Below, in pieces: positions 15,840 through 41,959 of a stretch of 64,000 nucleotides of DNA. Each line of letters starts with the position of its first letter. Position 1 is the first letter of the stretch. The stretch covers positions 392,001-456,000 of the forward strand of contig JAJGOT010000506.1 in the NCBI GenBank assembly GCA_022457155.1. Reading direction: 5' to 3'. Source of the DNA: Cladopsammia gracilis. Lineage: Eukaryota; Cnidaria; Anthozoa; Scleractinia; Dendrophylliidae. A model generated the notes under the pieces. It saw only the letters and a program-made list of their open reading frames with translations, was not told where the DNA came from and searched no databases. Both the position numbers and the translations under genes were made by a program.

Positions 15840-16335
15840 CTAGAAATGATAAAAAAACAGCTTCCATTTACCATGATTGTTGTCGTCAAGGTATTTCTGT
15901 ACCCACTTAGCTTTTAAAGCGCAGTTGAATGTTTGGATGTCTAAGATCTTTAATCCACCATTTTCATAACCATTTATCATTTCGCTTCTTTGAATTTTAT
16001 CCCTTTTTTTCCCAAAGAAAATTATAAAGAAGTTGATTTATATCTTTCAAGTAGGATTGTGAGGAAGGAAGAGGCGACATAATCGATACGCATGTTGAAA
16101 GGCGGCTAAACTTTTGATGACTTTTATTTTTCCTAACAAGGTTAATCTTCTGAGCTGCCAGGACCTTAGGATTTTAGAGATTTTTTCAGTTTTTTCTTTT
16201 CCTTATAATTTAGCATAATAGCTTCCTTCCCACATTTTGAAAACCATACCGCAAGTGCTTTAAGCTTCCAAAAAGCCCATTTTATATTTTGTTGCCTTAT
16301 CAGTAGCAATTTTATCTGTCCGGTTTCGGTCTTCT
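15840..16335 (-). pseudogene. LINE reverse transcriptase C-terminal fragment
   Basis: The minus strand encodes WQLRRLTLLGKIKVIKSL, a frame break, then GYENGGLKILDIQTFNCALK and KWVQKYLDDNNHGKWKL. This is the conserved thumb/C-terminal part of non-LTR reverse transcriptases (G-K-I-VIKSL, then GGLK-DI-...-ALK-W). Frame breaks show it is inactive. A (GTT)n run lies beyond it at about 16356-16380. Confidence 0.75.
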
Positions 16336-16939
16336 CATAATTAACTGTAAATTGTTATTGTTGTTGTTGTTGTTGTTGTAAGCCTGATAACTCGGCAAAA
16401 CTATCTAACAAGGAAAAGGATCTTTCTATAGATTTAGTACCATCGAGGATTAATACAGTATTTTACATGTTGTAATGTCATAAATTGTTCACGAGAGTTT
16501 CTTTACCCTTCGAACAATTTTCAGTATACTCTAGCGAACAATATAACTGCGTTAAGCAAAACAAACGTCAATGCCACAACAACTATTAAAAATACGAGCT
16601 GTTGGGTTTGGAAGCATACCGGAGCCTTTATCGACTTTTAAATGACTTCCTCGATACTGACAGAAACCTCTATTACGGGCACTTGGCTCCGTGACTGATT
16701 TAGAGAGAGGTTCGACTGAATATTGTTTAACTGTACAAGATGTTATATGGGTCTTATATAACTTTAAAATGAAAAATCTCAGGCTACAATGTTATGTGCA
16801 TGATGAATTTTACATTACAGGAAAGGCGGAGTGGACGTTTGTGACGAAGTTAAACAAATAGTCTGAGAAAAGACTGAACTGAATTTCGGCACGTTAATCA
16901 AGTTATGTATTGAGTCACATCAGTACATGATTCTGAAGG

Positions 16940-17235
16940 TATAACTCCCGGGGGGGGGGTGGGGGAGGGGGGACTCCCATATAAAAATGACGGGGGTGCT
17001 CGTCGTACCTTTTAGGGGTCAAAATTTGTAGATTGGTACCGCTTAGGGTACTAAAATCTGAAATGACTACCATTAGAATTATCGCGGTACCTTTTAGAAT
17101 ATGAGCCGAAAAACTATGACAGAATATGACATGTGTTGTTTTAGAATTGGTACCTCTTAGGGGTAAAAATTCTTTTGAGCCACGCCCATCACACGAGATT
17201 CTGGTATCTTTTAGGGTGTTTTTCGAAAATTTCCG
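16940..17235 (+). mobile_element. Interspersed repeat, GGGACTCCCA family
   Basis: The sequence begins with CCCGGGGG and a poly-G run, then GGACTCCCATATAAAAATGA and repeated GGTACCTTTTAGGG-like motifs. A copy in opposite orientation lies at 45095-45372. It is absent from copies A and C at the same place, so it inserted into copy B. No coding content. Confidence 0.65.
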
Positions 17236-18849
17236 ACGCCAGAGTTAAAAAAAGATATTGGCCACCTATCTCTCAGACGCTCAGTTGCAAATCTAATATT
17301 AAACCTTATTTAAACCTTATCTACTCAGTCGATTGTTTCGGACCGTTATTTTTTTTCAGTTCGCATCAACTTCATTCCTGTAACGCCATAATGCACGCGC
17401 CTCATGTCACGTGCACGCTCACAGTTAACGGAGTGGAGTGATTATGCCAGTAAACAGTACACGTAAATCGTTGGACATTTTATCACAGGGACCCTACATT
17501 ATCGAAAGGTTCATATATCATCATAAAATATAGTGAAGGATGTGGTACCAAATTAGTTCAAAATAAACGTAATCTTACCTTAATTTTATGTAAAAACGGC
17601 GAATTTTGGCGACTAAAGTGTCAATTTGGGTAGGCTCGCTGTGATTTTATAAACAATAATTCTTGACAGCATGTGGGTTAGAGCTCGGGCCAGTTACATT
17701 ACAGAGCTCTTAGCGGCCATTCACACACTATTGCGGTTGGTTGAAAAAAAATACTTTTATGACTAAAACTCACCGATCGAACGCCTTGTGTTTAGTGTAG
17801 ACGCATGTAGACGGGTTACAAGTGATGACGTCGTTTCACTCGTGTCAGTGTAGATGAAAGGCGAAAACGCCCTACGCAGGGATTACACTCCGACGCAGAC
17901 TTTCTTATACCCAAGAAACAAGATGTTCTCTCGCGGCGCGGCAAATTTCTGTTTCGTGAACGATCGATGCCATTTTAGCGACACCCGGGTAATCGGCTCC
18001 TGGCGACACTTCGAAATTTTATTACCGTCAGTACGTCAAAGAAAAAAAATTTCTAACATCGTATCCCTCCTTCACCACTACACCTCTGCGTTCATTTGGC
18101 AAACCCACGAAAAATTTAATTGTAACTTTTTTTTTCGGGTAACCCTATCCCTATCCCTGAGGGTGAATCGTGTAATCGCTTTACCTATGCCCTAGCCGAC
18201 AGCGCTGAATAACGCAAATGTCTACGTCACTGACCAGCGGAAGTCGGTTCATCATGTGAAGTAGGTCTCTTTAGACTCCGCGAACCAACTTCCGCGGGTC
18301 AAATTTGAAATTTCACCCAGTTACAGATGAAACGAAAAATCGTTCAAGCTGAAATTTTAAAGAATATCGAGGTGGCTGTCTAAAAACGCAAACAGCATTC
18401 TTAACCATTCAAACACAGAGCTTAACCATTGGAATTGTTTTTGTTACAGGGAAACCTCTGATAGGCTCCTACCTCTGAGTGTTATTCAGCTCTGTCATGA
18501 TAGCCTACTTTCGTCCTTACCCAGGCATAAACTAGAGCAGAAATGGCATCGACCATTACAAAATGCTTGGTTACTTATGATGGCATGGACCGTTAATAAT
18601 GGCATCGACCCTTTATAAAGGGAAATCAGCTGAGCTGCGGCGCGCTTTGGTGCCGGAAGTCGGGGCGGCGAAAATATATAAAGAGACAAGAAGCGTGCAA
18701 TATGAGAGAGATGCGAGCGTGAAAAAAGCCTCTGGCATCCAGGGTAACTTCCCCAAGCAATCCATTAGATGATGTCGGCGTTGGTGGCTACAGAGACAGG
18801 GTTGTTCCAGGAAAAAGCCGTCCGATGAGGGCTTAGATTAGACTATAAC

Positions 18850-19317
18850 AAGAGGCTCCAAGCAGCCTTTACTCATGCGCATGCGTAAGAAAATTTTATG
18901 ATATATTTTAAACATGATAAGAAGATGTCCGACATGGAGAAGAGTTACTCCTTTCATTCAGTCATCGTTCCTTAAAACCACGTTGTTTACTATTGAATGT
19001 TGTGGACATGAATGCTGTACCACAATGAAGCCAGTGATTTTTCTAAGTGTTATATATACCAAACGTGAACATAGTAATGTATGTAGGGTTGTAGGAGATT
19101 CTGTCGTGACACTTAAGTAACGCTCTTTTACCGGAAGTGAGAATAGCCGGAAGTCACTAAACAGGAAGTGTAAATGGCAAAGACGTCAACCGGAAGTGCA
19201 CAATTTAAAATATGCGCGCATAAATTTGCATGCAAAATCGTGACACAAAAAATAAAAACAATAATAATAAAAACAAGAAAAACGGAGCCGAAACCTTACC
19301 TCATGCCGCTACGCGCA
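18850..19317. mobile_element. Insertion specific to copy B with inverted ends
   Basis: Copy B differs from A near 12660 and C near 32405 by about 470 bp placed before AAAAAGGCTGTTTGTG. The ends carry inverted AGCCTTTACTCATGCGC and GCGCATGAGTAAAAAGGCT. The interior has repeated ACCGGAAGT-type words. Probably a MITE; no protein recognised. Confidence 0.5.
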
Positions 19318-19412
19318 TGAGTAAAAAGGCTGTTTGTGTAGAAATAAAATCCAGCGAGCAAACGCGCAAATCAGACACCGAACATCGCTGAAACGGTAAA
19401 TATATTACTGAG

Positions 19413-19925
19413 GCCCCGTCCACACGTATCCGGATATTTCTGAATCCGCAACTTTTTTGTTGCGGATTGGCCTTCCGTCCACACGTATCCGGCGAATATG
19501 GCTTACGAATCCGCAACTTTTTGAATCCGCTCTCCAAAGTGGAAATTTTTGAATACGCTACGAGTACGGCATCGTGTGGACGGTCGAATCCAGATATTTT
19601 TTAATACGCTGACGTAACAGTATCAGATCCATTCTTTTACCGCGCGAATATTCAACATGGCCGACCGAAATGTTCTCGCTTCACTTCTACTTGGACTTAT
19701 TTCAAGTCTAATAACGTGTTTACAGTTGAACTTTGATTTGAACTTGGCCTTTGCCTATGCTTTTTTTGACAACATTTAAAGAGGAGCCCTGGCTGCTAGA
19801 GCGAATCCGGATACGTGTGGACGGGCAAATACGATTCAAATACGCTACGTGCGGACGCGAATATTTTCTAATCCGCAACAAAAAAGTTGCGGATTAAAAA
19901 ATACCCGGATACGTGTGGACGGGGC
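19413..19925. mobile_element. 513-bp MITE with CTGAG target duplication
   Basis: Inverted ends GCCCCGTCCACACGTATCCG are flanked by CTGAG at 19408-19412 and 19926-19930. Copies A (13510-13514) and C (33256-33260) show the empty site with a single CTGAG. Internal blocks repeat the end motif. The superfamily is unclear from a 5-bp duplication. Confidence 0.8.
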
Positions 19926-21404
19926 CTGAGGAAGCGGATGCCGTAAAGAAGTTATCCGTCAGTACGTTACTATGGCTTCTCGTGATAGCTTCTCGCGCAG
20001 TTTTTCGATTTTTTAATGAAGAAAAAAAATGTTCAAATCAAAACGTATCTCAAAATGATAACTTGCTAAATAAAAATATACTTCGGCTGAAAGAATTGAC
20101 AATAAGACTAGAGACAATTATAAAAGACTTACGAGTTCACAAGCAATTTATAGGATACTGACGGCATTAAATTCTTACCTACCTTTCGAGAATTTGGTCT
20201 TGAATTAAATGTACGTTTTGGGAATATTGTTGAAAAGAAGGTAGCTTACGGGTGCCAGAGTAACAGCAGATAACATTACCGCCTTCTGCAATCTTTGATA
20301 TTCATTAACCTAATTATGTGCTCCATCGTGACGGACCACCATGGATATTTTGATTTTGATCTGAGAACCGGGGCCGGCCATAATCCAGATGATCAAAACG
20401 AGATTGACATTTAATACCAATAAAGTCACTACGAAGATTTGTATTGTTCACTTTTCGATATTTCGCTTTGTTTTCCTTGTATAAAAGCCAAAAAGTGCAA
20501 AGAGGTCTTCAAGGGTTTGCACGTCATATCTGTATTTTGAAACCTGACGATATAAAACGTATCGGACCGCGATATCGGACGGCTATCGCCTCATGATCAT
20601 TGACTTGTTTAATACGACTTGTGGTTAAACGCAAAAGAGAAGAGAATCAATATTAGCCTAAGGCAAGTTATTTCAATTCATGGGATACACTCGATTTTGC
20701 TGACAAGAGAATGTTATTCTTTGCAGGAAGCCAAATAATAGAGACCCAACGGTCAAAAGTATTGAATGTCGGCAACGCAGCGGCAACGGCAGCTAATTAT
20801 AACCTTCTAATTGCCGAGAAAGCTGTAGAAGTTTTAAGAACTTTCACTGACGTCTCCCTTACAGTGCACTTTTGTTCTTTTAATTCAGCGAGATCATAAT
20901 TAAAATTCCCATTACACTTACACTTACACTTACGTACAGCTTGCATTTTCGGGACGATTTATTACAGAGTCAAGGCTTTTCCGGATCAAAAGGGTGGTCC
21001 TTCAATCACGTGACTGATTGAAAGAACTAGAGTTAGAGAAAAAAAAATCCTAAAAAAAAACATTTCATTCCTGCTGGGTCGAATTAAGGATTGACAATCG
21101 AAGCGTTTAGCAAAACCTGTCATACGTGCAGCTTGAGACTGAAGAAATTTTAGGAGCACTATTAAATTAAACTAATTGTAGTTAACGAACACCTGTTTCG
21201 ACAACATCAACTAATATAAAAAAAGTATTAGTGTACACAAGTGTATTATTTATCGATATTTATCGATCTTAGACATTTGACAAATGACAAAACCTAAAAA
21301 TGAAGTGTGTTCCTTTACTTTGCAACACAGGATGTTTATCACAAGGCTTAAATCGCGACACAACAAAGCTTACAAGAGTCTTCCTTTTGCGAGACACAAT
21401 TGTG

Positions 21405-21600
21405 ACATACATACATACATACATACATACATAAACTTTATTAAAGTGTCAAAAATATTTAGCTGTAAGGCTAATTGAGGACACAATAACAATATAACAA
21501 AATATATGCGTGCAATACGTGATGTGGCACGCGTGATGCGGATGACAAGTTGGTTCCAAGGTACGGAACTTGATATTGTGTACGGGTCATTGTGCAATCT
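21405..21600 (-). mobile_element. LINE-like 3' tail fragment
   Basis: On the minus strand a non-coding stretch ends in TTAATAAAGTTTATG followed by (TATG)n, the usual form of a LINE 3' end. The corresponding place in copy C lacks it, so it inserted into copy B. Confidence 0.4.
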
Positions 21601-21936
21601 ATTTACGACTGCCTTCTTAGTTGTTCTTAGTTTGTCACAAGCTACACCGCGCTGACGAGCCCCAATAAAGGGCGAAACAGCTGTCCGCGGTTGCTACCCT
21701 GCTTTATCGGTTTCTGTCGCATTGGTGTCTTGCAAAATCTACCTTTTTACGTAGTCAGATCAGCCTTGCAGTTTGTCGTTTATGTTACTACACTGTACGT
21801 CATTTGAAACCTTTAATCAGTCTTTCGCAATCACTCGTGAAAGGTCAACTTAATACTTCCATTTATCTGTTCCTCGAAAAGAAAGTCGGCTCGAAGCCAA
21901 GGCACGACTCAATTAAAAAAATGCGTTAGCTGCAAT

Positions 21937-21944
21937 TATAAAAG
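21937..21944 (+). promoter_or_regulatory. TATA box of small-peptide gene 1
   Basis: TATAAAAG lies 93 bp upstream of the start codon at 22030. The same box, TATAAAGA, is kept at 35281-35288 before gene 2 (92 bp). The sequence between box and ATG is strongly conserved between the two genes, which supports a shared core promoter and 5' UTR. Confidence 0.6.
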
Positions 21945-22029
21945 AGGCGAAGTACACCTTGTATTTTCATAATCGCCTCAACTGGAAGACAGTCTAGAGC
22001 TAAGTCATAAGGAGCTAAGCCCGACCAAG

Positions 22030-22160
22030 ATGAAAGGAGTTGTAATATTTGTTACATTCGTGGCTGTGATAGCAGTGCTGTGGAGAACGACGGATGGAAA
22101 ACCACTGGAAGAAGCGTGGCTGGCTGAGATCAAAGATGAGATTGCTAAAAGTAAACTGAG
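22030..22160 (+). CDS. Gene 1 exon 1: signal and pro region
   Basis: Encodes residues 1-43 plus two bases of codon 44. The ATG follows GACCAAG. The donor is CTGAG|GTAAAG. It is one Ala codon shorter than exon 1 of gene 2. Confidence 0.72.
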
Positions 22161-23184
22161 GTAAAGAGAAAATTTTACACTGTAAATTCCTTTTACAACT
22201 ATTTGAAAGATTTGATCGCACAAAATACTGCCGTCAACAATGAGATTACAGGAGGATTGGAGGTCTACCTCTCCACTAGCTTAAAGTTTGGACGTTAAAA
22301 TCAGGGCCTAGGAGCACTCACCAAAGGCTTTAGAAAGTCATGCTTATGTTTCTTTTGTTTGAATTTCGATATGTTCAGAAGCCTTAGCTGGAAATTGAAC
22401 CGGCCGAAAGTATTAGAAACAAAATCCTTTTATCCTAAAAGTTACCTCAAGTATGATTTTCAAGAATTTTAAGGGAACTGCCTTGCCACCCGAAATCTTT
22501 ACCTCGGGCTTTCTGAGAATCAAAAACAACATTTTCATCACCTTCAGAACGTCAGGCGTGGTTTCGATACTGGGTCCCCGAAAACGTCAGTTTATATTTT
22601 CGGTTTGAGACCCTTAACTTTTCATCCGAGTTGTAATCCGAAATTCTGAGAGCGGACGGTATGAGCAGCTATTTGCAAAACAATTCGTTACGTGCCCCTG
22701 TAAAATTAACTTTAATTCCCTTCAGTTTAAACTGCACCGAGGCTATTTCTACCTTAGCTTTCTTACAAATACGTATGTCAATTTTATTTTAATTATACTG
22801 CTGAATTGATTTCAGCTCCATCCAAACCGCCGTACTGAAAAAACATGTTTAGCAATTGATATTTCCCTGTGCACAATTATTTGAAGTTCCTCCAATTTCC
22901 ACCATGCAAGATAAGGCATCTTATGGCAAGAGCAGTGAAAAGATCAGCTTGTCACTGTAAAATCCTAAACAGGGTCGTCGGAAACGTAAAACGAACAAGA
23001 ATGGGGGCATACAGTTTTTTTAAAAGCTTAGAATGCATTATTTTTCTTTTTTTGCAGTTTATCAGATGTGATTTTAAAGCGACGTCATGAGCGAGCTATA
23101 GAACGTTCTGGACGATTTAAACGATGGTTGTGGTGTAGCCCGCCCGCAAAATTGCCTGGCTGTCCTAAAGGCGTTCCAAACTAA
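22030..23184 (+). CDS. Small secreted Cys/Trp peptide precursor, gene 1 (two exons)
   Basis: Exon 1 is 22030-22160 and exon 2 is 23058-23184, with GT at 22161 and AG at 23056-23057 (phase 2). The product is 85 residues. Residues 1-23 are a hydrophobic signal peptide (MKGVVIFVTFVAV start). A mixed-charge pro region (LEEAWLAEIKDEIAKSK) and a basic LKRRHERAIERSGRFKR stretch with dibasic sites follow. The C-terminus carries RWLWC, a proline-rich 8-residue loop, a second Cys in LPGCP and a short tail ending GVPN. It is likely cut to a short cationic peptide with one disulfide. It could be an antimicrobial, signalling or other secreted peptide; I do not recognise the family. AATAAA follows at about 23218. 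Confidence 0.7.
23058..23184 (+). CDS. Gene 1 exon 2: basic linker and mature peptide
   Basis: The acceptor is TTTTTTTGCAG. The exon encodes LSDVILKRRHERAIERSG, then the Trp/Cys peptide, with TAA at 23182-23184. Gene 2 has an alternative tail and a third exon. Confidence 0.72.
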
Positions 23185-23664
23185 AATGCGGTGTTCCGAT
23201 TTCGATAAATTTAGAGAAAATAAAGAAAATACTCTGAAAATGACTGTGGAAAGAATCACCATAGCGTGACATTCTCGGAAAAACAGGAAGTCTATTATTC
23301 TTAAAAAACAGGAACATTTAATCAAACTTGCTGTGACTTCCTATGACGTTAGAGTGTGTTCACATGACGTCATAAAAATTAAAATCTAAAGTATACATCC
23401 TACAAATCTGTTAATGTGGATACCAGTGTTATAATCTTTCACAAAACGTTTCAGGTTTTAACGATGTTTCGTTTTCGATTTATAAAGGTTGTAGATGTGT
23501 CACGCAATTCATTACGCTATTTCAGATAAGCCGTGAAAATAAACAAAATTGAACTAGTTGAAAGTTGTTAATGAATTATAAATCCTTATAAGCCGATTTC
23601 ATGCATGTTATAGTGAATACAATATTTTGTGATGAGATTTTTGGTGTTATTAAGACTTTAAATT

Positions 23665-24170
23665 TTTTGCCTGCCATGTTGGTGTCCCTAACGAGTAGAA
23701 CACCAAGATGGCCGCTCCATACATTTCTTACTAAAAATGTATATATTCATTCGCCTATAACTCTTGAATGAAATGCTCTTGCACTTCAAAATTTGGCCCA
23801 GATGATAGATAGGAGAATGTGCCGCCTTTGTAATGACTTCAGCAAATGGTATGACATCCTAGTCTTCTCGGATAAGGACGAAAAAACTGTAGGTCCCGTC
23901 TCACAGCACTCTCTGATCTCTTCTTGTGGGACGTTAAAGATCCCACATCACTGTTCGAAAAGAGTATGGGACGTAGACCCCGGTGGTGTGGTCAACCTTG
24001 CGGGTTGTGGGATTGGAAGGGATGGCACCTCGCATGGGACCCTGAGTCCCGTTCGTGCCTTTCCCTCTGGACTGTATGAGTCCAGAAAAGTTGTTAGAAA
24101 AAGACAGAAAGTTTTAAACTCTCTACAATTCCATAAACATTTTCGAATCGAAAACGGCTTGTGAATTTTG
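23665..24170. repeat. Interspersed SINE-like repeat stretch
   Basis: This holds a GCCATGTTGGTG/CACCAAGATGGC inverted pair near 23670-23715. A stretch with CTTCTCGGATAAGGACGAAA, GTGGGACGTTAAAGATCCC and TTCGAAAAGAGTATGGGACG follows. I recall this from abundant cnidarian interspersed repeats. The 123-residue open frame through it (23793-24164) has no protein-like features. Confidence 0.35.
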
Positions 24171-24366
24171 ATGTGACGTCAGTGAAACACTCTATTCAAG
24201 GTAGCGCTATTGTTTTCAAATCATGTGTGTCATCGTATGATTTTTTTCGATCAATCACAAGCTGCGCAATTGCAATTTTATTACACACTTGAGTTTCAAA
24301 ATTGTGAACTTTTTAAGTGAATTCACTTTCATTTTGTGAAATTGTTGAGTGAAGAAGTTGGTCAAG

Positions 24367-24669
24367 ATGCCTACATCCCTTAAACAGTTGGATCAACGCT
24401 ACGAAAGTGTATGTAACAACATAACGGATGCCAAAGACTATACAATGCAGCATTTAAAGCCAAATATTGAGGTAGATATCCCAACGTTTTACACTCATCT
24501 TGACAGCTCAAACCTTGAGCAACTGGAAGCGGATATTGATGTCATGGAACGCGTTATTGGGCAATGTCGCATCGCCATCAAAAATGAACAGTCGCGACGT
24601 TTACTTCAAAAGCATATAATCAAACTCACGGAAAGAAAAAACAAAAACAAAATCAAAAACACGCATTGA
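24367..24669 (+). CDS. Hypothetical 100-residue helical protein
   Basis: The first ATG in the frame is at 24367 (GTCAAGATGC). The product is mostly charged helix: SLKQLDQRYESVCNNITDA, then a central VDIPTFYTHLDSSNLEQLEA, then a helical VMERVIGQCRIAIKNEQSRR, ending in a Lys/Asn-rich tail. It resembles N-terminal helical regions of BEL/Pao-type retroelement polyproteins, but I have no firm match. It ends 75 bp before copy C starts. If the unit truly begins further left, another copy may lie outside the window. Confidence 0.35.
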   Translation: MPTSLKQLDQRYESVCNNITDAKDYTMQHLKPNIEVDIPTFYTHLDSSNLEQLEADIDVMERVIGQCRIAIKNEQSRRLLQKHIIKLTERKNKNKIKNTH

Positions 24670-25848
24670 AGTTGTCAAGAAGAGCGGCCAGATTGACTCG
24701 AGCAACACCCTATCCTATACAACCAACACGTGAACCTTCAATCACACAATGATTTTTAACATTGAAATGGAACTTGACTGCATTTATTGTATATTTTTAT
24801 GTCCATAGGCGTAGCTTGTAACACCATTCTCATGGATATAACGTTTATCATCGAAGCAAGATAATGACACTTTATTAAGCTCATAGTTTCCGAGTTGTTC
24901 ATGATTTTGACTTCTAATTATTTTCATTTTATGATGCATTTGTTTGTTATTCAATAATAAGTTTTTATAGTCTTCATGTTTGATGTCCTGTTTTATAACA
25001 TTTTTCTTTATAGATGGTTTTCACTCACGTGACCTTCAGTTCTGTGGGACTCAAATGACAAAAGCCATGGCGGCCATGTTGGTGCACACAACAAAAGAAG
25101 TTCATTAAAATTCTTTTGTAGGTGTGCACCAACATGGCCGCCGTGACGTAACGTGAAAACCACCCATTCCTTTTGCTGTTTTACCACCTTTACCATTGTC
25201 TTTTATGTATGAATACATTTTACTTCTCAATCCTATGAATTCATTAATCGGTATACCACTAGGATGAAGATATTGAAACTCGAAGCTTGAAATTTTAGCA
25301 GCTTCCCTCGCTAGCGGTTCAATTTTTTAGGATGATTGTTATAGTTATGTTCAGTTACATGTTGTTTTGGTCTACCTCTTGGTGAAACTGTTATTTGTGT
25401 TAAATAAAAAATTGGGAAGGACTGTGTGGAAAAACAGTTTTAAAAGACTAAAGCTTGGTCGAAGTGCATTCATGTTCATTTCAAACCCTTTCAAACAGCA
25501 GCTACAAACTATCTAGCAAGTGGGTTTCCCCCGCCCTCTACAAATGCGAACCGCTAGCAAATGTTTTTTTCCCTTTACAACTGCTAACCCCTGGCACATG
25601 GGTTCTTTCCCCTCTACAATTGCTAACCCCTAGGGTGGAGAAGCCATCCCCTTAGACCTAACCCCTAACCCTTATTACCAGGTTACCATTTCCCCAAACA
25701 AAATGCTAACACCTAGCAAATGGGTTTTTTCCCTTTCTACATCTGCTAACCCCTAGGGTGGAGCCTAATTCCAATCCTCGCAATAAAAAGTCCTTAACTC
25801 CAATCAAATGCTAACTTTTGAGAAAGGCTATCCTCCCTTTGATCATAT

Positions 25849-26153
25849 AAAAAAAGTAAGTAAAGTCGCACACGAGCCAGATGGCCCACACGGCCGGAGC
25901 TTAACCCGGTTTCTGTAGCATGAAGCGACTAGGAATATTGCTACTCCCTCCTGGATGGGATGCTAGTCAATCGCAGGGTTACCCCCAGCATTTTGTCGCC
26001 GGTACCCATTTATACACCTGGGCGGAGAGAGACAAGTGTGGAGTAAAGTTTCTTGTCTAAGGAAACAACACGACGACAGAGACCAGGCTTCGAACCACCG
26101 ACCTTCAGGTTGAATGTCCGACGCGCTAACCACTAGACCACCGTGTCTCCACA
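25849..26153 (-). mobile_element. tRNA-derived SINE (family 1), copy C
   Basis: Same 305-bp insertion and same 14-bp target duplication (25835-25848, 26154-26167) as at 1104-1408. The SINE therefore predates the A/C duplication. Confidence 0.88.
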
Positions 26154-26519
26154 CCCTTTGATCATATGCCAACTTTAAAAACAGTGACTGTTCATAACAC
26201 TTTTTGCAATTTTTACTGATTTTAATTTTAATTTGTATTCTTTTATCACATTGAGGTTGTAGTGTGCTGCGTTGCAGAAGTCGCTCCCTCAATTAACAAC
26301 TAATTTAACAGACTTATATTTGTTTTTATTTTTACTACTCACAACAACTCCCGCCCATACACTTTTTATCAACCTCCTGATATTTCATTGATGCAAATCA
26401 ATGTTCATGTTGGGAACCCCTCTTTTATGGGGATCCCATTCTATAACACCTAAAGAATGCCACAAAGGTTGCTAGATAACTACCAATTATATATATATAT
26501 TTTTCAATTAAACAGCATG

Positions 26520-27159
26520 GATACCTCTATAATACAGACACCTCTATAATACAGATACCTCTATAATACACGCCCTTGTAAAAAAGGTACCGGGATCCCG
26601 CCAGGAAATTGGCCGCCGGGATTTTCACCCACAGACACCTCTATAATACGGACACCTCTATAATACAGACACCTCTTTAATGCAGACACCTCTATAATAC
26701 AGACACCTCTATAATGCAGACACCTCTATAATACAGACACCTCTATAATGCAGACACCTCTATAATACAGACACCCCTATAATACGGACATCTCTATAAT
26801 AGAGACACCTCTATAATACAGACACCTCTATAATACGGACATCTCTATAATAGAGACACCTCTATAATACAGACACCTCTTTAATACGGACACCTCTATA
26901 ATAGAGACACCTCTATAATACAGACACCTCTATAATACGGACACCTCTATAATACAGACACCTCTATAATACGGACATCTCTATAATAGAGACACCTCTA
27001 TAATACAGACACCTCTTTAATACGGACACCTCTATAATACGGACACCTCTACAATACAGACACCTCTATAATACAGACACCTCTATAATACAGACACCTC
27101 TATAATACATACACCTCTATAATACAGACACCTCTTTTATACGGACACCTCTATTACGG
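26520..27159. repeat. 17-bp minisatellite (copy C)
   Basis: Same unit and same internal interruption as 1774-2497, but about 85 bp (five units) shorter. This shows length change since the duplication. Confidence 0.9.
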
Positions 27160-27347
27160 GTGGCTTGGCTCCGTGACTGATTTAGAGAGAGGTTCGACTG
27201 AGTATTGTTCAACTGTACAAGATGTTATATGGGTCTTATATAATTTTAAAGTGAAAAAGTCTAAACAGGCTACAATGTTATGTGCATGATAAATTTTACA
27301 TTAAAGGAAAGGAGTGGACGTTTGTGACGAAGACACTCAAAGAAATA

Positions 27348-29291
27348 CCGAAGAGTTACAATAGTAGCGACCCTCGTTACTTTCGGAATTAGCAGCCTTT
27401 GGGGGTCGCTACTTTCGGGGGGGTCGTTACTTTCGGGGAACAAAAATCGTTTACAAATAAAGCTGGCGCGAGCTTTTTTTCCGAAATAAAAAATGAACAA
27501 CAAAAAATTAAAAAAAAGAACAATATTTTATTTGCATTCCATATGTATAGATTGTGTTTCATAAAAAGAAGGTAACAATGATAAATACAGCAATAATAAA
27601 ATAAATCAATATCAATGCCAATAAACAAATGAGACAAAATTCGTCTATCCAGTTTCATGTTTTACAGTGCGGCTACTGACCCAGACAAAGTTAACCAATC
27701 ACAAAGGAGAACGAGTAGATTCCAACATTTTTAACTTCAGCCAATAAAATGTCGAGTACAGAACAATGAAATGTCAACTTGTTCACTCGTGAAGCTTGTG
27801 TTGAATAAAGCTTTAGCTAGCGTTGACTTTTCGATTTAAAAATTTGAGTAGTTTCACTTGCTACATGAATGAATGTCATGCATCATGCAAGTGAGCGAGA
27901 ACTGATTTCAAACTGTATGAAAGCAGTGAACGCGACAGCCGTATGTTTGGGCAAATTGCGTGGTGGATTTGAATTCTCGGAAAAAATAACAACTCAACCA
28001 CCGGCTGTTTGCAAATGTTACAAGGTACACTGCCAGCATAGCGTATATAAGCATTTATTTTCTAACCGTTTGAAAAAGAGCGGCAACTTTATTTCAATTC
28101 TTTTTTTTTATTGAAATGTCAAAATTTTTTCCGTTGCAGATTTTCTTTGCGATTTGGAAAATTATAAAAACTCAACTGGCGAACCGTGTAATATCGATAG
28201 ATTTTTAGTGAAATATATGTTGAAGAATGCGCCGTTTCTATACGACCGATACTCTTTTTATACAGTTTTGAATTTCTCTTTTACTTAATTTTATTTCAGC
28301 TTAATCCGACTGTCGGCCAACCCCGCGTGGAACTCAAAGCGCATAAAACTTAATTAACCACGGCGGCGAACAAGCCGTGTTTTCGTTGTTTTCAAATGCG
28401 TAGGGCACTTTTTAATTTCCCTAAACTATGACCGTCGCTTTCACTGGTACTTTTACAGTTAAGAAGGTCTTCTTTTTTCGCTGGCGTCAAGTGTATTTAT
28501 CAGTTCCAGCCCGCCGTTGACGCCGTAGAGAAAACTTGAATCTGTTACGAGCGAACAAATTATTTTAAATCCACTTGTGTACCGTCGCATTCCATATTTT
28601 CACACAGTTTGGAATTTCTCTTTCATTTGAATCGCCGATATTTACTTTCCAAATCGCGATGTTAAAACAAGTCAAGTTCAAAAGGGATGGAATCGAAGTA
28701 AATTGAAAATCCAAAGCTGTACAGTCAAAACTTGTTTTGATCTGTTTTCATGGCAAACGAAATGAAATTTCATTGTTCTGTACTCAACATTTCATTGGTT
28801 AAAGTAAATAATTTTGGAATCTATTGTTCTCGTTCTGTTTTGTGATTGGTTAACTTTGTCTGGGTGACCCCGGTGGGCTCCGGATGTCCATGTTCCTAGA
28901 TTGTATTGTCAGTAGTCGGGACGAGTTGTATTAGTTTGTCTCTCAGTTCCTTTCTTAGACTTCTAAGTCCTTTCTTAACACCTATTTCATAAACGCAAGG
29001 AATCTCGATGCCTTCTCCTTGAACCCATACACCTTCAGGCGCACTCCTATTTTGGCCAGATACACAGCAAGTCATCTTGATTTCCTTTTCCAGCAATGGC
29101 TTGTACAGGACCTTCGCTAGACTATCAGGCACGTGTCCAACTGTAGTCGCATCTTGTTCGCCACCGTTTGTGTTTTTCATCTTCATCTTCGGGGGTTGCT
29201 ACTTTCGGGGGGTCGCTACTTTCGGGATTTACTAACGGCCAGAAAAAATTGACGTTACTTTCGGGGGGTCGTTACTATCGGAACTCTACGG
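27348..29291. mobile_element. TA-flanked DNA transposon, copy C
   Basis: Counterpart of 2686-4628, with TA at 27346-27347 and 29292-29293 and the same nested element. Confidence 0.8.
28896..29186 (-). CDS. HIRAN-like ORF fragment (copy C)
   Basis: 96-residue paralogue of 4233-4523. Apart from the Cys/Gly change near residue 9 it is identical. This reflects recent duplication and does not by itself show selection. Confidence 0.4.
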   Translation of the reverse strand: MKMKNTNGGEQDATTVGHVPDSLAKVLYKPLLEKEIKMTCCVSGQNRSAPEGVWVQGEGIEIPCVYEIGVKKGLRSLRKELRDKLIQLVPTTDNTI

Positions 29292-30978
29292 TAGTCTGAG
29301 AAAAGACTGAACTGAATTTCGTCACCTTTATCAAGCTGCGAACCAGAGAAGCGCGAGGTGTGCGCTTCTCTCGTTCCGCGTCTATCCCCCACGCGCGTCT
29401 CCCGCGTCTTGCCCAGAAAGACGACAGGGGACGAGTCAGATTTCTTAACGAATAACTTCAGTGTATGTCAGAGTTAAAAAATATATATTGGCCACCTACC
29501 TCTCAAGGAGCACAGACGCTCAGTTGCAAATCTAATATTAAATAAACCTTATTTATTTGGCCTACTTAGTCGACTGTTTCGGAACGTTATTTTCGTTCGT
29601 TCCAATCCACATCAACTTCATTCCTATAACGCCATACTGCACGCGCCTCATGCCACGTGCACGTTCACAGTTTACGGAGTGATCATACTAGTATACAGTA
29701 CGTGAAATCAAAAGGTTCATATATCATCATAAAATATAGCAAAGGATATGGTACCAAATTAGTTCAAAATCAATGTGATCTTTCCTTAATTTTATGTATG
29801 TCATCCTTGCGGTAAAAAACGGCGAATTTTGGCGTCTGAAGTGTCACGGTTTGGGTAGGCTCGCTGTGATTTTATTAACAAATTGTTGAGTTGTATTAAC
29901 AGCATGTGGGTTAGAGCTCGGGCCAGTTACATTACAGAGCTCTTAGCGGCCATTCACACACTATTGCGGTTGGTTGAAAGCGCATACGTTTATTACTAAA
30001 ACTCACCGATCGAACGCCTTGTTTTTTAGTGTAGACGCATGTAGACGGTTTACAAGCGATGACGTCGTTTCACTCGTATCGGTGTGGATGAAAGGCAATA
30101 CCGCCCTAGGCAGGGATTACACTCCGACGCAGACTTCCTTATACCATAGAAAGCAGAGGTTCTTTCGAGGTGCGGCAATTGTTTTGTTTCGTGAACGGTC
30201 GATGCCATTTTAGTGACACCAGGGTAATCGGCTCCCGGCTACACTTAGAAAAATTTTCACCAGTTATAGAAATTTATTTTTAACTGATCCCCCACCTTCA
30301 CCACTACACCTCTGCGTTGATCTGGCAAACATACGAAAACTTTAATTTTACCACAATTGCCGCTAAACTCGCAATCTGATTGGTCGACGTGAGTGGTAAA
30401 TGAGAGTCCAGACAACGGTGCTGACGCTAACATCACGCGCGCTTGAAAACAACCAATCAGATTGCGAGAAAGTTATAGACAACGCTTGCTCTTTCTTTGC
30501 TGTCACGTTTTGTAACAAGACTTCGATTTTTCCTTGTATTTTTTCTAAATATTGTTGTAAAAAACAAATTTACACGGTTTTCCGTGGTGTGGACTCTTAT
30601 TTACCACGATTTACGTTTAACAACGAAAGTACAGCCTAAACTTAGAATAAACTTTGAGGAGTCGAAAACAATTGTAATATGCCATTTTTTTATGGAATCA
30701 TTGATGAAGAAACACTATCTCGGAAGCCATACTAACCGTCCTATTATAAACCGCAGACTTGCGCTCACACAAAATCACGCCATGGACTGAGAAATTAACT
30801 CAGTGATCCTTGCATTCATTCTTGCAAACTATGTGCCAAAGAAACAATATTGTTATGCCGAGAACTAGCAAACAGCGATGGCATAACTAAATATTCTCAT
30901 AGTAAACGGCTCTGGAAAGCGTAAATATCTCATGTCAGTATCAGACTTTCCTAAGATCAAAGAATCGGCAATATCCCA

Positions 30979-31897
30979 GGGTATCCAATCGATGAAATCG
31001 ATAATCGGTGACAATCGATATCAATCGATATCAATTAATCGATTGATATTGATAATCGATAACCGATCGATGGAGAAGATTTGTGTGACCTTATCGATTG
31101 TCATCGATTATCAATAGCAATCGATAGCGTAATTGATATCGATTGGTTGCAATATTTTTTTCCGTTTCAGAGTCTACAAGTTGACGAGAATAAGCGCTTA
31201 GTATCACGCATTTATTGTAAAAGACTTTGTATGTAGTGATCGTTAACACATTTTATTTGAATTATTAAAACGTGAACATGAGAATAAGAATGATTTCCCT
31301 ATCTTCTCTCTCTCGTTTCTGCGTTCCCTCTTCTTCTTACAAGCAGAAAAAAGCTCTCCAACGTTCATTGCAAAATGGCATTGGTGGTATCCTTTGACGA
31401 CGCATGTTAGGGCCGATTTACACGGTACAACTTTGTTGCATGCGAAACGCATACGGCATGCTTACGACATGACTTGAGTTGGTTTACACGGAGTAATCCG
31501 TGTTGTAAGCATGTCGTAAGCATTAAATTTTAAGCGTGTCGCATGCGACAAAGTTGTACCGTGTAAAACGGAGAGTTGAACTTATTTTTCGCCTGACCCA
31601 GACATTTTCTGCGCATTCGTCATTTATGAAGGTTTCTGCCCGCCAGTTTATGGCATTTTACGGGGGTGACTAGCAAATCGAGCACGTGCAACAAGAAATC
31701 CAGTCACGAAGATCCAATCGATAACAATCGATAGCCAATCGATAGCAATCGATGAACGATTTTTGTGTGACTATCGATTGATCATCGATTGATCATCGAT
31801 TGATCAATACCAATCGATATCAATTAGCTAATTTTATCGATTGATATCGATTTATCGATTGCTTTTCCGATCATCGATTGCCATCGATTGGAGACCA
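30979..31897. mobile_element. ATCGAT-rich inverted-repeat element (copy C)
   Basis: Counterpart of 11246-12151; the right-hand hexamer block has an extra GATCATCGATT step. Confidence 0.6.
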
Positions 31898-34800
31898 CGG
31901 GGCAATATTAAGAACAACGGTCCTGTTATATATCTTAATTTTGATCTATAAAAAGAAAACAATCTTTCGGACAGGTACTTGGGGTAACCCTATTCTAAAG
32001 CCGGGCTGAAATGCTTTTTTTGCGACAAGCAGTATTTGTGCTAGGCATAAATATAAATATAACCTATAAATATCTCGCCTCTGACTCCTTACTTTTAATT
32101 TTGGTCACGCGCCACGTGTAATATAATACCGAGACTCCCGTATGTAAACAAACACAAAGGCGTGGCTGACTAGGGTCCTTTAAGGGAAATCAGCTGAGCT
32201 GCGGCGCGCTTTGGTGCCGGAAGTCGGGGCGGCGAAATATAAGAGACCAGAGGCGTCTAATATGAGAGAGATGAGAGCGCGGGAATAGCCTCTGGCATCC
32301 AGGGTAACTTCCCCACGCAATCCATTAGGTGATGTCGGCGTTGGTGGCTACAGAGACAGGATTGTTCCAGGAAAAAGCCGTCCGATGGGGGCTTAGATCA
32401 GACCATAAAAAGGCTGTTTGTGTAGAAATAAAATCTAGCGAGGAAACGCGCGAATCAGACAAAAAACATCACTTAAACGTGGGAGTGGGTCGCGTAATCG
32501 GCACGTAGTCACCCTCCTGACTGACCTGACAACAAGCAGCGATGTTTGCATTCTAGACCTGCAAACGCCAACTCATGATTAACAGCAGGTCTGTAATTGA
32601 CGTAGTGTTTTGTATTTTAAGGCATAATTTTTAGGAATGAGGGAACAAAGGAAATAAAGCACTTATTGAATGGATGATGGGGTGGTTCCATGCGTCATAG
32701 TCAGTAAACGCCTAATATGATGGGAACAGTATTAATTAGAGACGTAATTCTGTCCTAAATAGTGTGTAGCTGTACATAATACGATTTCATGTGGAATGTC
32801 TCAGTAGACAGATACACAGATCATCGTTTGGCTCGGCGCGAGCACTTTTTCGCGAATTTTAAATAGAGTAACTTAAATGCGAAATTCCCATGTATTTCAA
32901 GTTTCGGTTCGGAGATTATTAGCATTCTTGAACGTATAAAATAGACCTTAATTCCTGCTAAAAGAATTAGAGTACAGCTATTACAAATCCTGTATGAATC
33001 CCACTTCGGAGAATCAGATACAAACAGCATCATCGAGCACTCCGGCAAATACTAAAGGATTTTTCATTTAAATGTTATATATTTTTGACTTTCTATCTTC
33101 CGTTTTAGCTAAAAGTTTCAAGCGCATTGACGGAAGGTTTAGAACCTTGACTAAAAATGTTCTTGGACTAGATGTTACATTTCGGACTTTAGATTATGCA
33201 AAGGTATAAAATTCCAATTTCCTGATGCGACAATACTGAAACGGTAAAAATATTACTGAGGAACCGGATGCGGCAAAGAAGTTATCAGTTGCTATGGCTG
33301 CATTTCCGAAAAAAGTAAACAATAAACAAACAAACAAACAATATGCGAGTATCTCGCTTGAAGAGAAGCAAGACATTTTACGTAAAGGAAGCCCTATTGT
33401 TTATTTTTCTTTTATCAGTAAATTTTATGAGACATCAACTATATTTGACAAAAATCACGTTAAATTTCTACACGCGTCCATGTCAGTATGTCAAGACACG
33501 CCTCTGGACACGACTTTGAAATACCCGTGATAGCTTCCCGCGCAATTTTTTTGAATTTTTAATGAAGAAGAAAAAAATATGTTCAAATCAAAACATATCT
33601 CAAAATGAAACTTGCAGAATAAAAATATACTTCGGCTGAAAGAATTGACAATAAGACTAGAGACAATTACAATTACGAATTTTACAAGCAATTTATAGGA
33701 TACTCCTGACGGCATTAAATTCTTACTTACCTTTCGAGAATTTTGTCTTGAATTAAATGTACGTTTTGTGAATGTTGTTGAAAAGAAGGTTGCTTACACA
33801 GCAGATAACATCACCGCCTTCTGCAATCTTTGATATCGATATTGCGGTTTTCATTAACCTAATTATCCACTCCAACGTGACGGACCACCATGGATATTTT
33901 GATTTTGATCTGTGAACGCGAGCCGGCCATGATCAAAACGAGATTGACATTTAATACCAATAAAGTCACTACGAAGATTTGTATTGTTCACTTTTCGATA
34001 TTTCGCTTTGTTTTCCTTGTATAAAAGCCCAAAAGTGCAAAGAGGTCTTTAAGGGTTTGTACGTCATATCTGTATTTTGAAACCTGACGACATAAAACGT
34101 ATCGGACCGCGATATCGGACGGCCTTGTTACGACTTGTGGTTAAACTCAAAAGAGAAGAGAATAAATATTAGCCTAAGGCAAGTAATTTCAATTCATGAG
34201 ATACACTCGATTTTGCTGACAAGAGAATGTTATTCTTTGCAGGAAGCCCAATAATAGACCCAACGGTCAAATGTATTGAATGTCGGCAACGGTAGCTAAT
34301 TATAACCTTATAATTGCCGAGAAAGCTGTAGAAGTTTTAAGAACTTTCACTGACGTCTCCCTTACAGTGCACTTTCGTTCTTTTAATTCAGCGAGATCAT
34401 AATTAAAATTCCCATTACACTTACACTTCACTTACATACAGCTTGCATTTGCGGGACGATTTATTACAGAGTCAAGGCTTTTCCGGATCAAAAGGGTGGT
34501 CCTTCAATCGCGTGACTGATTGTAAGAACTAGAGTTAGAGAAAAAAAATCCTAAAAAAAAAAACATTTCATTCCTGCTGAGTCGGATTAAGGATTGACAA
34601 TCGAAGCGTTTAGCAAACAATGTCATGCGTGCAGCTTGAGACTGAAGAAATTTTAGGAGCACTAATTAAACTAGTTAACGAACACCTGTTTCGACAACAT
34701 CAACTAATATAAAAAAAGTATTAGTGTACACAAGTGTATTATTTATCGATATTTAGCGATTTTAGACATTTTACAAAACCTAAAAATGAAGTGTGTTCCT

Positions 34801-35280
34801 AAAATCATACTTTGCAATACAGGATTTTTGGCACAAGGCTTAAATCGCAACACAATTCAACAAAGCCGTACAAGAGTCTTCCTTTTACGAAATTAAATAC
34901 AGACATGATTTCAGATTTCATATTTTGCTCCCCACGTATATCCGGTTGCTCTTGTGGTCGCTTGAATTTTTTAAAAACTAAAATTTCGCCTGCTTCGTTG
35001 GTTTCATTTTTTCATAAAAAAATTGCTTTAGTTATTGAGCAATGCTGCAACGCTGCAACACTTATATCTTGTCAACAAATGCATATATATTTTGGATTTT
35101 TATCGTACCTTGCCCTTTTTCAACAACTACATCGAAGCAAATATTGGTTGATGACGTGAATTGTGTGACTAATATAGGTTTGTCGTGTTATCCCAGCATG
35201 ATTCCTGTTGAGGTTTCTAATTGCCGCTAAAACGTCATCACTTCCAAAAGAATGAATGTAAAAAATGCGTTAGCTGTAAT

Positions 35281-35288
35281 TATAAAGA
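35281..35288 (+). promoter_or_regulatory. TATA box of small-peptide gene 2
   Basis: TATAAAGA lies 92 bp before the ATG at 35373, in a block conserved with gene 1 (GAGGCGAAGTGCACCTTGTG). Confidence 0.6.
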
Positions 35289-35372
35289 GGCGAAGTGCAC
35301 CTTGTGTTTTCATAGTCGCCTCAACTGGAAGACAGTCTAGAGCTAAGTCATAGAGAGCTAAGCCCGACCAAG

Positions 35373-35506
35373 ATGAAAGGAGTTGTAATATTTGTTACAT
35401 TCGTTGCCGTGATAGCAGCGGTGCTGTGGAGAACGACGGATGGAAAACCACTGGAAGAAGCGTGGCTGGCTGAGATCAAAGATGAGATTGCTAAAAGTAA
35501 ACTGAG
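35373..35506 (+). CDS. Gene 2 exon 1: signal and pro region
   Basis: 134 coding bases ending CTGAG|GTAAAG. It differs from gene 1 exon 1 by a few bases and one codon. Confidence 0.72.
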
Positions 35507-36443
35507 GTAAAGAGAAACTTTTACACTGTAAATTCCAACAACTATTTGAAAGTTTTGACGCACAAAACACTGCCGTCAACAATGAGATTACAGGAGGGTC
35601 AGAGGTCTACCTCTCCACTTGCTTATACTAAGTTTGGACGTTAAAATCAGGTTCTAGTGACACTCACCAAAGGCTTTAGAAAATCATCCTTATATAGCAG
35701 GAGCTGCAAATTGAACCGCCCGAAAGTGTTACGAACAAAATCCTTTTCTCCGTAAAAGTTAGCTCAAGTATGATTTTCAAGAATTTTAAGGAAACTGTTT
35801 GCCTCCCGAAATCTTTAGCTCGGGCTTTCTGAGAACCGCCAAAACTAACAGCATTTTAATCCTCATCTGAACGTCAGGCGTAGTTTATATTGGGTCCGTA
35901 AACGTCAGTTTATATTTTCGGTTTGAGAACCTTAATTTTTCATTCGAATCCGGGGGCGGACGGTATATATGAGCAGCTATTTGGCGAAAAAATTCGTTGT
36001 TTAATGTCCTTCAGTTCAAACTGCGCCGAGGCTATTCCTACCTTAGCTTTCTTACAAATAAGTATGTACCAAACTTGAAGTCGTAAACGAACAATTTTAG
36101 CAATTGATATTTCCCTGTGCACAGTTATTTGAAGTTCGTCCAATTTCCACCATAAAATAAGGCATCTTATGGCAAGAGGCAGTGAAAGATCAGCTTGTTC
36201 ACTATAAAATCCTACACTGGGTCGTTGCCGGGAAACGTCAGAAAACGAACAAGAATGGGGACATACAGTTTTTTTAAAAGCTTGGAATTCATTATTTTTC
36301 TTTTTTGCAGTTTATCAGATGTGATTTTAAAGCGACGTCATGAGCGAGCTATAAAACGTTCTGGACGATTTAAGCGATGGTGGTGGTGTGGACAAGAGGA
36401 TCCACCACTGCCTGGCTGTCCTACCGCAGCAGCCGGGAGCTAG
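35373..36443 (+). CDS. Small secreted Cys/Trp peptide precursor, gene 2
   Basis: Coding exons are 35373-35506 and 36311-36443; the product is 88 residues. The signal and pro regions match gene 1 except for one inserted Ala. Exon 2 begins identically (LSDVILKRRHERAI). It then changes Glu to Lys and Leu to Trp, giving RFKRWWWC. A different 9-residue loop (GQEDPPLPG), the second Cys and the tail TAAAGS follow. GTAAGT begins at 36443, inside the TAG codon, and an acceptor lies at 37101-37102. Whether spliced or not, the codon reads TAG. Exon 3 is thus 3' UTR. The function is unknown; a processed cationic two-cysteine peptide is likely. Confidence 0.72.
36311..36443 (+). CDS. Gene 2 exon 2: basic linker and mature peptide
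   Basis: The acceptor is TTTTTTGCAG. The final codon TAG occupies 36441-36443, and the likely donor lies within it. Confidence 0.72.
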
Positions 36444-37102
36444 TAAGTCATCAGATTTATATTGCGCCATGCATATCAGTTTTTATAAATACAGCTTAAA
36501 TTCAACAGTACTTTGACCAAATGCCATTTGCCTTTTTGTCCCAACGTTTTTTAAATGTTAAGGTATTGGTCAGTTTGAAACGAAAACTCGATGTATATAG
36601 TTATGCAAAGAATGTGATCAAAGTTCTCAAAAGATTTGAAGTTTGAAAGGCCATGATCATAAAGAAAACTACTTTTGGTCTATATGACAATAAATCTGAA
36701 CAATAAAGGAGCCATGGAGCGGAATAAAGAACACTTTTAATGTTAATAAAATTCTCGAGCAATGACAACACATCGATCAGATACCTTTGTCGTGCGCAGA
36801 TACCGTCACCGCCCACAAAGATTTCAGTTATCGTAAACACATCGCCAAATTAAAAGTCGGTATGAGTGCTTGCTGTGATGTTGAAAGTCAACTCAATTCG
36901 CAGGTATTCCGGCGGCAAAGTGTGTGGGGTATAGTCGGTAATGCCGGCGGGATATTGCCGGGAGCTATTTCGTGAGCATCTCGTTGGCGTATGAAAACCA
37001 TGTGTTAGGTTGTTTATTTAGGAAGCGCAAAGACCCTTTGAAATCATAAAAATGGAAATTTATTGATATCCAATTAACGACTTGAACATTTTTTTTTTAC
37101 AG

Positions 37103-37230
37103 GAAGCGAACAGCACGAATAGCAGAGGAATCCTGCACGCTATGGAACTCACGACGACATGAAACTGACAGCTGATCAGCTGAATGAATGAATTATTCCA
37201 TTGTAAAGAATTATTAAAGACACTTTATAT
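37103..37230 (+). other. Gene 2 exon 3, probable 3' UTR
   Basis: It follows a strong acceptor (TTTTTTTTACAG). Its first base G completes TAG with the TA left on exon 2. ATTAAA near 37213 is a possible poly(A) signal. The boundary on the right is a guess. Confidence 0.4.
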
Positions 37231-40924: not shown

Positions 40925-41959
40925 CAGTAAAAACCCGCAAGTAAGAACCTGCATTTTCCCAAGTTAGCCTAAACAGGTTCTTACACTGGTGAACCAAGCA
41001 CAATATGCGAGTAGGGAAGCTGGGTACTAGAATTGAGCTTTGTTTAGGTTTATTTTGCTTTGCAACATTTGCGAAAATTTCTGCACGAAATTAATAACTT
41101 TTCTCTTAAAAAGTACAAATGAAGTTCGAAATAAAGTGTTAACATGTAACCTAGTGACTTTGTTTGTTCATTGGGTCTCCCCGTGGCCTGTATTTGAGTA
41201 TTTTCTTCCACGCGCACTATGGAAGAAAATACTCAAATACAGGCCACGGAGGGACCCAATGAACAAAGAAAGACACTAGGTTACATGTTAACACTTTATT
41301 TCGAACTTCATTTGTACTTTTTAAGAGAAAAGTTATTAATTTCGTGCAGAAATTTTCGCAAATGTTGCAAAGCAAAACAAAACTAAACAAAGCTCAATTC
41401 TAGTACCCAGTTTCCCTACTCGCATTTTGTGCTTGGTTCACCTGTGGTTCTTACATAAATGGTAATTAGCAAAAATTTAGGATACTGATTTAGGTTCTTA
41501 AGTAGTTTCTTATTTTCTGAAGAAAAAAATTACATTGTAGCTAATAGAATTTAGTGGTATTCAGTCTATTCCTTATATAAAATCTGCATACCAAGTAAGT
41601 AATTATGTAAAAATGACTATAATAAGAAAAATTGAAGCACTGATCACGGAACATAACATTATATACATGTGATGTAATGCCTTGTCCAATTAATGTAATT
41701 TTATTAATAACAATTTTATTTGATTTTCAACATTGGCATGTACATTGCGATTGGAGTGATAAGGCACTTGTGTCTCCAAAGAGGATCCAAAACGTTGACC
41801 TACTCTTATTTGCCCAAGTGTACTGTACATATTTTTTAATATAGATGTTAGAAAATAAGAACCTGTCTCAAATTTTAGGCTAAACGGGTTCTTGTATAGA
41901 GGGGGGTCTAACTGGCAAATTTTAGCTTGACAGGTTCTTGTAAACTAGTTTTTTTACTG
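40925..41959. mobile_element. TA-flanked MITE with inner snap-back
   Basis: The ends CAGTAAAAACCCGCAAGTAA and the inverted CAGTAAAAAAACTAG carry TA on each outer side (40923-40924, 41960-41961). AAGAACCTG motifs repeat below both ends. A near-perfect inverted repeat, 40988-41210 and 41220-41441 with a 9-base spacer, lies inside. No transposase is seen. Confidence 0.7.
40988..41441. repeat. Large inverted repeat, 223-bp arms, 9-base spacer
   Basis: The arms meet at CTTCCA CGCGCACTA TGGAAG. They match with only a few differences along their length. A transcript through it would form a long double-stranded hairpin. Confidence 0.9.

Follow-up and report, generated by a model that had tools for sequence, protein, structure and literature searches.

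A tandem family of short, secreted-type peptide genes with a constant prepro part and dissimilar C-terminal tails in the coral Cladopsammia gracilis

A 64,000-nucleotide stretch of Cladopsammia gracilis contig JAJGOT010000506.1, here called the window, carries two intact two-exon genes on the plus strand, termed A and B. Their precursors of 85 and 88 amino acids (aa), respectively, share a nearly invariant signal-like start and propeptide and cease to resemble each other just past a short loop between two cysteines. A third copy, gene 0, lies to the left of the window. We give about an even chance to the reading, drawn from sequence features, that these genes encode a lineage-restricted, convertase-released, single-disulfide effector peptide that works in host defence, in venom or in controlling the microbiome, as opposed to a neuropeptide. 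Corals depend on secreted peptides to defend themselves, to signal and to control their symbionts, and gene finders easily overlook short spliced exons like those of A and B. The locus offers a precise, testable gene model: the family has three copies, its two different predicted mature peptides can be synthesized, and another contig holds an exon-1 relative.

Gene structure, conservation and the point of divergence

The structures of the two genes are established by sequence motifs and by conservation. Their parts, with distances in base pairs (bp), are as follows.

21937–21942, plus strand: TATAAA of gene A, 93 bp upstream of the ATG
22030–22160, plus strand: exon 1 of gene A, with a hydrophobic signal-like start MKGVVIFVTFVAVIAVLWRTTDG followed, after a predicted cut point, by the first half of the propeptide, KPLEEAWLAEIKDEIAKSKL..
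22161–23057, plus strand: intron of gene A, phase 2, 897 bp, gag/GTAAAG ... TTTTTTGCAG
23058–23184, plus strand: exon 2 of gene A, with the rest of the propeptide, RFKR (23113–23124), the predicted mature peptide WLWCSPPAKLPGCPKGVPN (23125–23181) and TAA
23219–23224, plus strand: AATAAA poly(A) signal of gene A, 35 bp past the stop
35281–35286, plus strand: TATAAA of gene B, 92 bp upstream of the ATG
35373–35506, plus strand: exon 1 of gene B
35507–36310, plus strand: intron of gene B, phase 2, 804 bp, gag/GTAAAG ... TTTTTTGCAG
36311–36443, plus strand: exon 2 of gene B, with the end of the propeptide, RFKR (36366–36377), the predicted mature peptide WWWCGQEDPPLPGCPTAAAGS (36378–36440) and TAG
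37103–37220, plus strand: candidate 3′ untranslated region (UTR) exon of gene B, proposed from motifs, with acceptor TTTTTTTTTTACAG ending at 37102 and ATTAAA at 37213

The N-terminus of the precursor is hydrophobic (Kyte-Doolittle peak 3.3 in A, a measure of hydropathy only) and precedes a 43-aa propeptide that carries a KRR site and the RFKR site. In A the charge of this propeptide is bipartite, at -2 for residues 24–50 and +6 for residues 51–66. The predicted mature peptides comprise 19 residues in A and 21 in B, are built as WLWC-x8-CP and WWWC-x9-CP, and have a net charge of +2 and -2, respectively. With the cysteines open, their calculated average masses are 2050.45 Da for A and 2229.45 Da for B, and closure of the disulfide would lower each by about 2 Da. 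The residue that follows RFKR is Trp in both, and neither peptide begins with Pro or with a Gln from which pyroglutamate could form. The C-termini, ..KGVPN in A and ..TAAAGS in B, both lack the Gly-basic signal for amidation. At the end of gene B the stop codon overlaps a consensus splice donor (TA/GTAAGT, GT at 36443), and splicing of TA/G to the candidate 3′ UTR exon would restore the same TAG stop; an unspliced 3′ end is also possible, as four AATAAA sequences occur at 36689–36745.

An earlier note on this DNA had described A and B as paralogues with nearly identical first exons, and the counts bear this out. In exon 1 there is one 3-bp insertion, and the 2 substitutions among its 131 sites are synonymous; the propeptide part of exon 2 differs at 2 of 68 sites (one E/K replacement and one synonymous change). 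The introns differ at 88 of 780 aligned sites with 19 gap events, and therefore the identity of the exons is far above the local background. In the 5′ flank, 107 of 113 aligned sites are identical and 6 differ. We estimated the ratio of nonsynonymous to synonymous substitution rates (dN/dS) by Nei-Gojobori-type counting over the 66 aligned prepro codons of A and B, which gave 3 synonymous changes in 48 sites and 1 nonsynonymous change in 150 (dS 0.065, dN 0.007), a ratio of about 0.1. At the rate of the intron 17 nonsynonymous changes would be expected (binomial P 3e-7), which shows that strong purifying selection acts on the prepro part. The synonymous rate of this part is lower than that of the intron, although not significantly so (P 0.19). 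The same note had held that a ratio close to 1 over the whole precursor would speak against the family being functional, and the value obtained for the prepro part favours a functional family. Moreover, every A/B indel in the alignable coding part is a multiple of three, RFKR and both cysteines are kept, and in both diverged copies the reading frame is open and the splice sites are canonical, with a TATA box upstream and poly(A) signals downstream.

The WxWC head, the two cysteines and LPGCP are common to A and B and enclose the 8- and 9-residue loops that had been reported. Homology between the two genes at the DNA level ends at 23167 in A and 36423 in B, after CCTGGCTGTCCTA, which places the break inside the coding region just past LPGCP. 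Alignment of the following 101 bp scores lower than the average of shuffled sequences, and the tails and 3′ flanks have no homology to each other. The sequence to the right of the break in gene A (23168–24743, plus strand) has no homologue to the right of gene B and consists of a dispersed repeat from about 23350. Within the 94-kb stretch of the contig that was searched there are no further copies of either tail or flank, except for those of A beside gene 0.

Inside the loop the outcome depends on how the sequences are aligned. Without guidance, the loop DNA (15 versus 18 nucleotides) aligns no better than shuffled sequences, and all of 300 copies evolved at the rate of the intron align better. 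When the alignment is guided by the protein, the alignable core differs at 7 of 36 sites (counted by hand) and has two in-frame indels, which is not significantly above the 88 of 780 sites in the intron (Fisher P 0.18). The two treatments disagree for this one pair of genes. The description of the mature part as fast-changing is not supported in that form: the core is not demonstrably accelerated, and the tails and flanks are not homologous at all. What survives of the earlier interpretation is a set of intact genes of secreted type that expanded in tandem; accelerated substitution in the mature part, within which homology ends, is not supported.

The tails, stop codons and 3′ flanks of A and B look to be of different origin. 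Such unrelated ends point to a duplication breakpoint or a replacement of the 3′ end rather than to accelerated substitution, and the loss of homology would be explained if an edge of the older duplication fell within coding sequence or if one of the 3′ ends was replaced later. A broader proposal, which we regard as unlikely, is that new mature peptides are made by exchange of the 3′ end of the last coding exon, with tails captured at breakpoints instead of being shaped by point mutation under positive selection. According to this proposal, a frozen cassette of signal, propeptide, WxWC, loop and LPGCP would be duplicated with its edge within coding sequence, and the DNA downstream would supply a new C-terminal tail, stop codon and 3′ UTR in a single step. 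If true, the locus would be a compact example of new secreted peptides arising in one duplication step.

Copy number and relatives

Searches were extended to the whole assembly (878 Mb in 1469 contigs), in which the window corresponds to C1169:392001–456000. Gene 0 is located at C1169:389286–390440, with its stop codon 1,560 bp left of the window. The protein that it encodes is exactly protein A, and over 1,401 bp the two genes differ by 4 substitutions, one of which is coding (in exon 1) and synonymous. A 27-base word from exon 2 occurs three times in the whole genome. A six-frame protein search of the genome considered 8 candidates and returned 7 matches, of which six correspond to the exons of the three genes and the seventh is a weak match (E 2.1) on contig C1078. 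At this search sensitivity the family consists of three genes genome-wide, all in one tandem array. The tandem duplication that the earlier note had proposed is thus upheld, and two separate duplication events can be resolved.

The exon-1 open reading frame (ORF) has one relative, from one candidate, in the protein database. This sequence, P0015, is 44 aa long and identical at 39 of 44 positions (E 7.6e-18), and it sits on a 4,487-bp European Nucleotide Archive (ENA) contig, showing that exon 1 exists outside this assembly. P0015 ends at the same Arg that is made by the AG/GTAA donor in A and B, and hence the splice site is probably conserved. When the 88-aa B precursor was used as the query, the same database gave one candidate and no match at E 10. 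As a control we used another ORF of the window (53443–53805, plus strand), which by itself encodes a protein with an IGFBP-type domain (25.9 bits, E 1.6e-5, slightly short of the Pfam cut-off of 28). This query found 14 relatives from 15 candidates at 65–77% identity, and so the database does hold related proteins; short spliced genes are probably often missed in it.

The characterization of the family as undescribed also stands. Pfam-A gave no match for B and, for A, only DUF2428 at E 0.13, under the cut-off; neither precursor matched NCBIfam; and the PDB had no significant match, the best E values being 1.7 for B and 0.29 for A. The weak PDB rows, which are phage primase/helicase entries with E values of 0.29–1.8, were taken as chance. 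Searches with the exon-1 alignment yielded 85 pattern stretches and 0 relatives among viral contigs. Among bacterial and archaeal genomes there were 102 pattern stretches, including one 18-residue match in an actinobacterium that was rejected as chance. A search of open-licence papers with precursor motif strings gave no related peptide among the matches listed, as judged by title and the start of the abstract. Across the libraries searched and the open-licence papers, the family is apparently new. Its general kind, a tandem family of secreted precursors with a constant prepro part and a variable peptide, is well known.

Possible roles of the peptides

The precursor layout resembles that of frog-skin and cone-snail precursors, in which a constant prepro part and a basic cut site precede a variable C-terminal peptide that in some cases has a single disulfide loop, although these belong to other phyla and have other gene layouts. 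Coral antimicrobial peptides of the Damicornin or AmAMP1 type are related to ShK and have six cysteines, and A and B differ from them in having two. SCRiPs are likewise short and coral-restricted, have several members, and carry a signal peptide and, in almost all cases, a convertase site (PMC2652719). The latter two features are predicted for A and B as well, from the Kyte-Doolittle hydrophobic N-terminus and RFKR, but with two cysteines they do not fit the eight-Cys SCRiP pattern Cx6-7Cx4-6CPx3-6Cx4-6Cx5-6CCC (PMC2652719). The arminin, periculin and HyCWR proteins of Hydra are also secreted, taxonomically restricted, clustered paralogues, and most are charge-biased (PMC10945409). HyCWR is Cys/Trp-rich too, but it has six cysteines, lacks a conventional cleavage site and is strongly positive in its C-terminal portion, and its activity is unproven (PMC10945409); A and B have two cysteines, a clear RFKR site and a charge of +2 or -2 after it. 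The cyclic FRamides (CxxxMCWFRamide) of Scyphozoa and Cubozoa share with A and B one presumed Cys-Cys ring next to a Trp. However, their ring is C-x4-C, they are amidated, and in the scyphozoan case there are several copies per precursor (PMC6909153), whereas A and B have C-x8-C and C-x9-C, no FRamide end and one copy. Finally, the hexacoral neuropeptide precursors (RFamide, GLWamide, PRGamide, RWamide and others) are likewise anthozoan, secreted and processed by convertases, but their products are mostly amidated and protected at the N-terminus (PMC7523074), and those predicted for A and B are neither.

Because the precursors begin with a hydrophobic segment, carry RFKR and have a short C-terminus with a Cys loop, secretion followed by convertase release seems the simplest reading. 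The precursor would enter the secretory pathway, and a furin-type convertase would cut RFKR/W to free a peptide of 19–21 residues. This peptide would have a Trp-rich head (W-L/W-W), one Cys-x8/9-Cys loop that is presumably closed by a disulfide and ends in LPGCP, and a free, variable C-terminal tail, and it would act as an extracellular effector. New copies form by segmental tandem duplication, with the prepro part nearly fixed and the tail perhaps exchanged at or near the duplication edge. We favour an effector over a neuropeptide because amidation and N-terminal protection are absent, because the tail has changed, and because the genes are clustered in tandem, as is reported for the short paralogous secreted genes of Hydra antimicrobial families (PMC10945409). 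By comparison, most hexacoral neuropeptides are amidated and begin with Gln or Pro (PMC7523074).

Several observations weigh against an effector role. The family is small, at three genes, and P0015, the sole relative found outside the assembly, covers exon 1 only. The net charges of +2 and -2 make a common cationic, membrane-lytic action unlikely, and the propeptide forms no significant amphipathic helix (P 0.76, 0.32 and 0.59). Positive selection in the loop is undemonstrated, a single diverged pair being insufficient. Trp at P1′ is not known to be favoured by furin, and expression, secretion and processing are all predicted from the sequence. In addition, conservation is stronger in the propeptide than in the mature peptide, and the propeptide could itself be the product.

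The main alternative, which we judge somewhat unlikely, is a non-amidated cyclic signalling peptide of neuropeptide or paracrine type, in which the Trp head and the LPGCP ring would bind a receptor and the tail would be free to vary. The conservation of the WxWC and LPGCP core between A and B is in keeping with this, as are three precedents: among other cnidarians, Scyphozoa and Cubozoa have predicted neuropeptides with a single Cys ring (CxxxMCWFRamide; PMC6909153), one cnidarian neuropeptide is reported to lack amidation (PMC12440616), and precursors with a single mature copy are known in hexacorals, although there the copy directly follows the signal sequence (PMC7523074). On the other hand, A and B offer no amidation Gly, no pyroglutamate or Pro at the N-terminus and no repeated copies, the paralogues have opposite net charges and different tails, and such a ring is undescribed in the main-text passages of the hexacoral survey, where ‘cystine’ appears once, about vasopressin (PMC7523074).

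Another candidate for the active product is the constant propeptide, from which the KRR and KR sites would release HERAI(E/K)RSGRF or a longer basic segment and leave the Cys/Trp tail as a by-product or chaperone-like appendix. Here 1 aa is changed in 43 while the tail is unconstrained, the dibasic KRR site precedes the proposed segment, and the bipartite charge in A (-2, +6) recalls that of most Hydra antimicrobial precursors (PMC10945409). We nevertheless find it improbable, as a by-product would not need the two cysteines, WxWC and LPGCP that are kept amid diverged surroundings, and in B the replacement of E by K creates a further KR site within the segment that would be released. Far less probable still is that A and B are decaying or non-functional duplicates whose tails diverged under relaxed constraint after duplication. 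Homology does end within the coding region, so that the original 3′ end may be missing from one copy or both, and substitutions in the aligned core do not exceed the intron rate, but both frames are intact, the indels of the alignable part are in frame, the prepro dN/dS is about 0.1, and splice and promoter-like elements are retained.

Duplication history and neighbouring features

The two duplication events have the following members, none of which is assigned a strand.

14835–34588: right copy of the recent tandem duplication, which carries gene A
Window position -13936 to 14837: left copy of the recent tandem duplication, which carries gene 0 (outside the window)
19981–23167: left member of the older duplicated unit, an upstream block and gene A, paralogous to 33526–36423
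33526–36423: right member of the older duplicated unit, an upstream block and gene B, in which homology stops inside the coding region

The recent duplication spans about 29 kb and produced the gene 0/A pair. Its copies align over four stretches of 300 bp or more, with 36/3048, 8/400, 55/11503 and 68/3880 mismatches. Only ATT (3 bp) is common to both edges at the junction at 14837, which looks like a simple microhomology join, and there is no N within the 94 kb of the contig examined. The older duplication gave rise to A and B, whose introns are 11% diverged, and the two main blocks of the duplicated unit are 81 and 88% identical; the A/B pair is thus older than the gene 0/A pair. This event cannot be reconstructed to the base because the flank of A is a dispersed repeat from about 23350.

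We consider it quite improbable that the gene 0/A pair is an artefact in which the assembly joined two haplotypes, a question that concerns the recent event alone and does not affect the functional readings. The low divergence across the four aligned stretches would suit an artefact, and coral haplotypes can differ by a divergence of this order. Conversely, an overlap assembler should not invent a clean break with 3 bp of microhomology and no N in 94 kb, and the duplication also copies the truncated first part of a neighbouring helicase gene. An artefact would in any case leave the A/B pair, with its 11% intron divergence, untouched.

The truncated helicase segment made by the recent duplication lies at 14755–15546 on the minus strand (Pfam DEAD, E 4.5e-16). 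Helicase-like segments of the source copy, of RecQ type by eye, extend left of the duplicated block (C1169 left of 378780). Only the left copy of the recent duplication holds a 4.9-kb insertion (6057–10985) that looks like a young mobile element. It is apparently a short element placed head-to-tail with a longer one, their common end being a 180-bp identical stretch (6472–6651 and 10806–10985), and no target duplication beyond 2 bp (AT) is seen. Tandem arrays of a 17-bp unit (ACAGACACCTCTATAAT) occupy the equivalent place in both duplicated blocks, at 1884–2492 and 26631–27154, with about 36 and 31 copies, respectively.

The dispersed repeat just past gene A, at about 23350–23700, has 38 further matches among the best 40 of 2593 candidates. 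Farther to the right, the 463 bp of 40984–41446 form a near-perfect palindrome, with 94.8% identity between the stretch and its reverse complement. As suits an anthozoan, the assembly has 39 GFP-family matches, versus none in 14 control genomes, and the best PDB matches of one translated exon (locus L033) are DsRed-type and mCherry-type chains.

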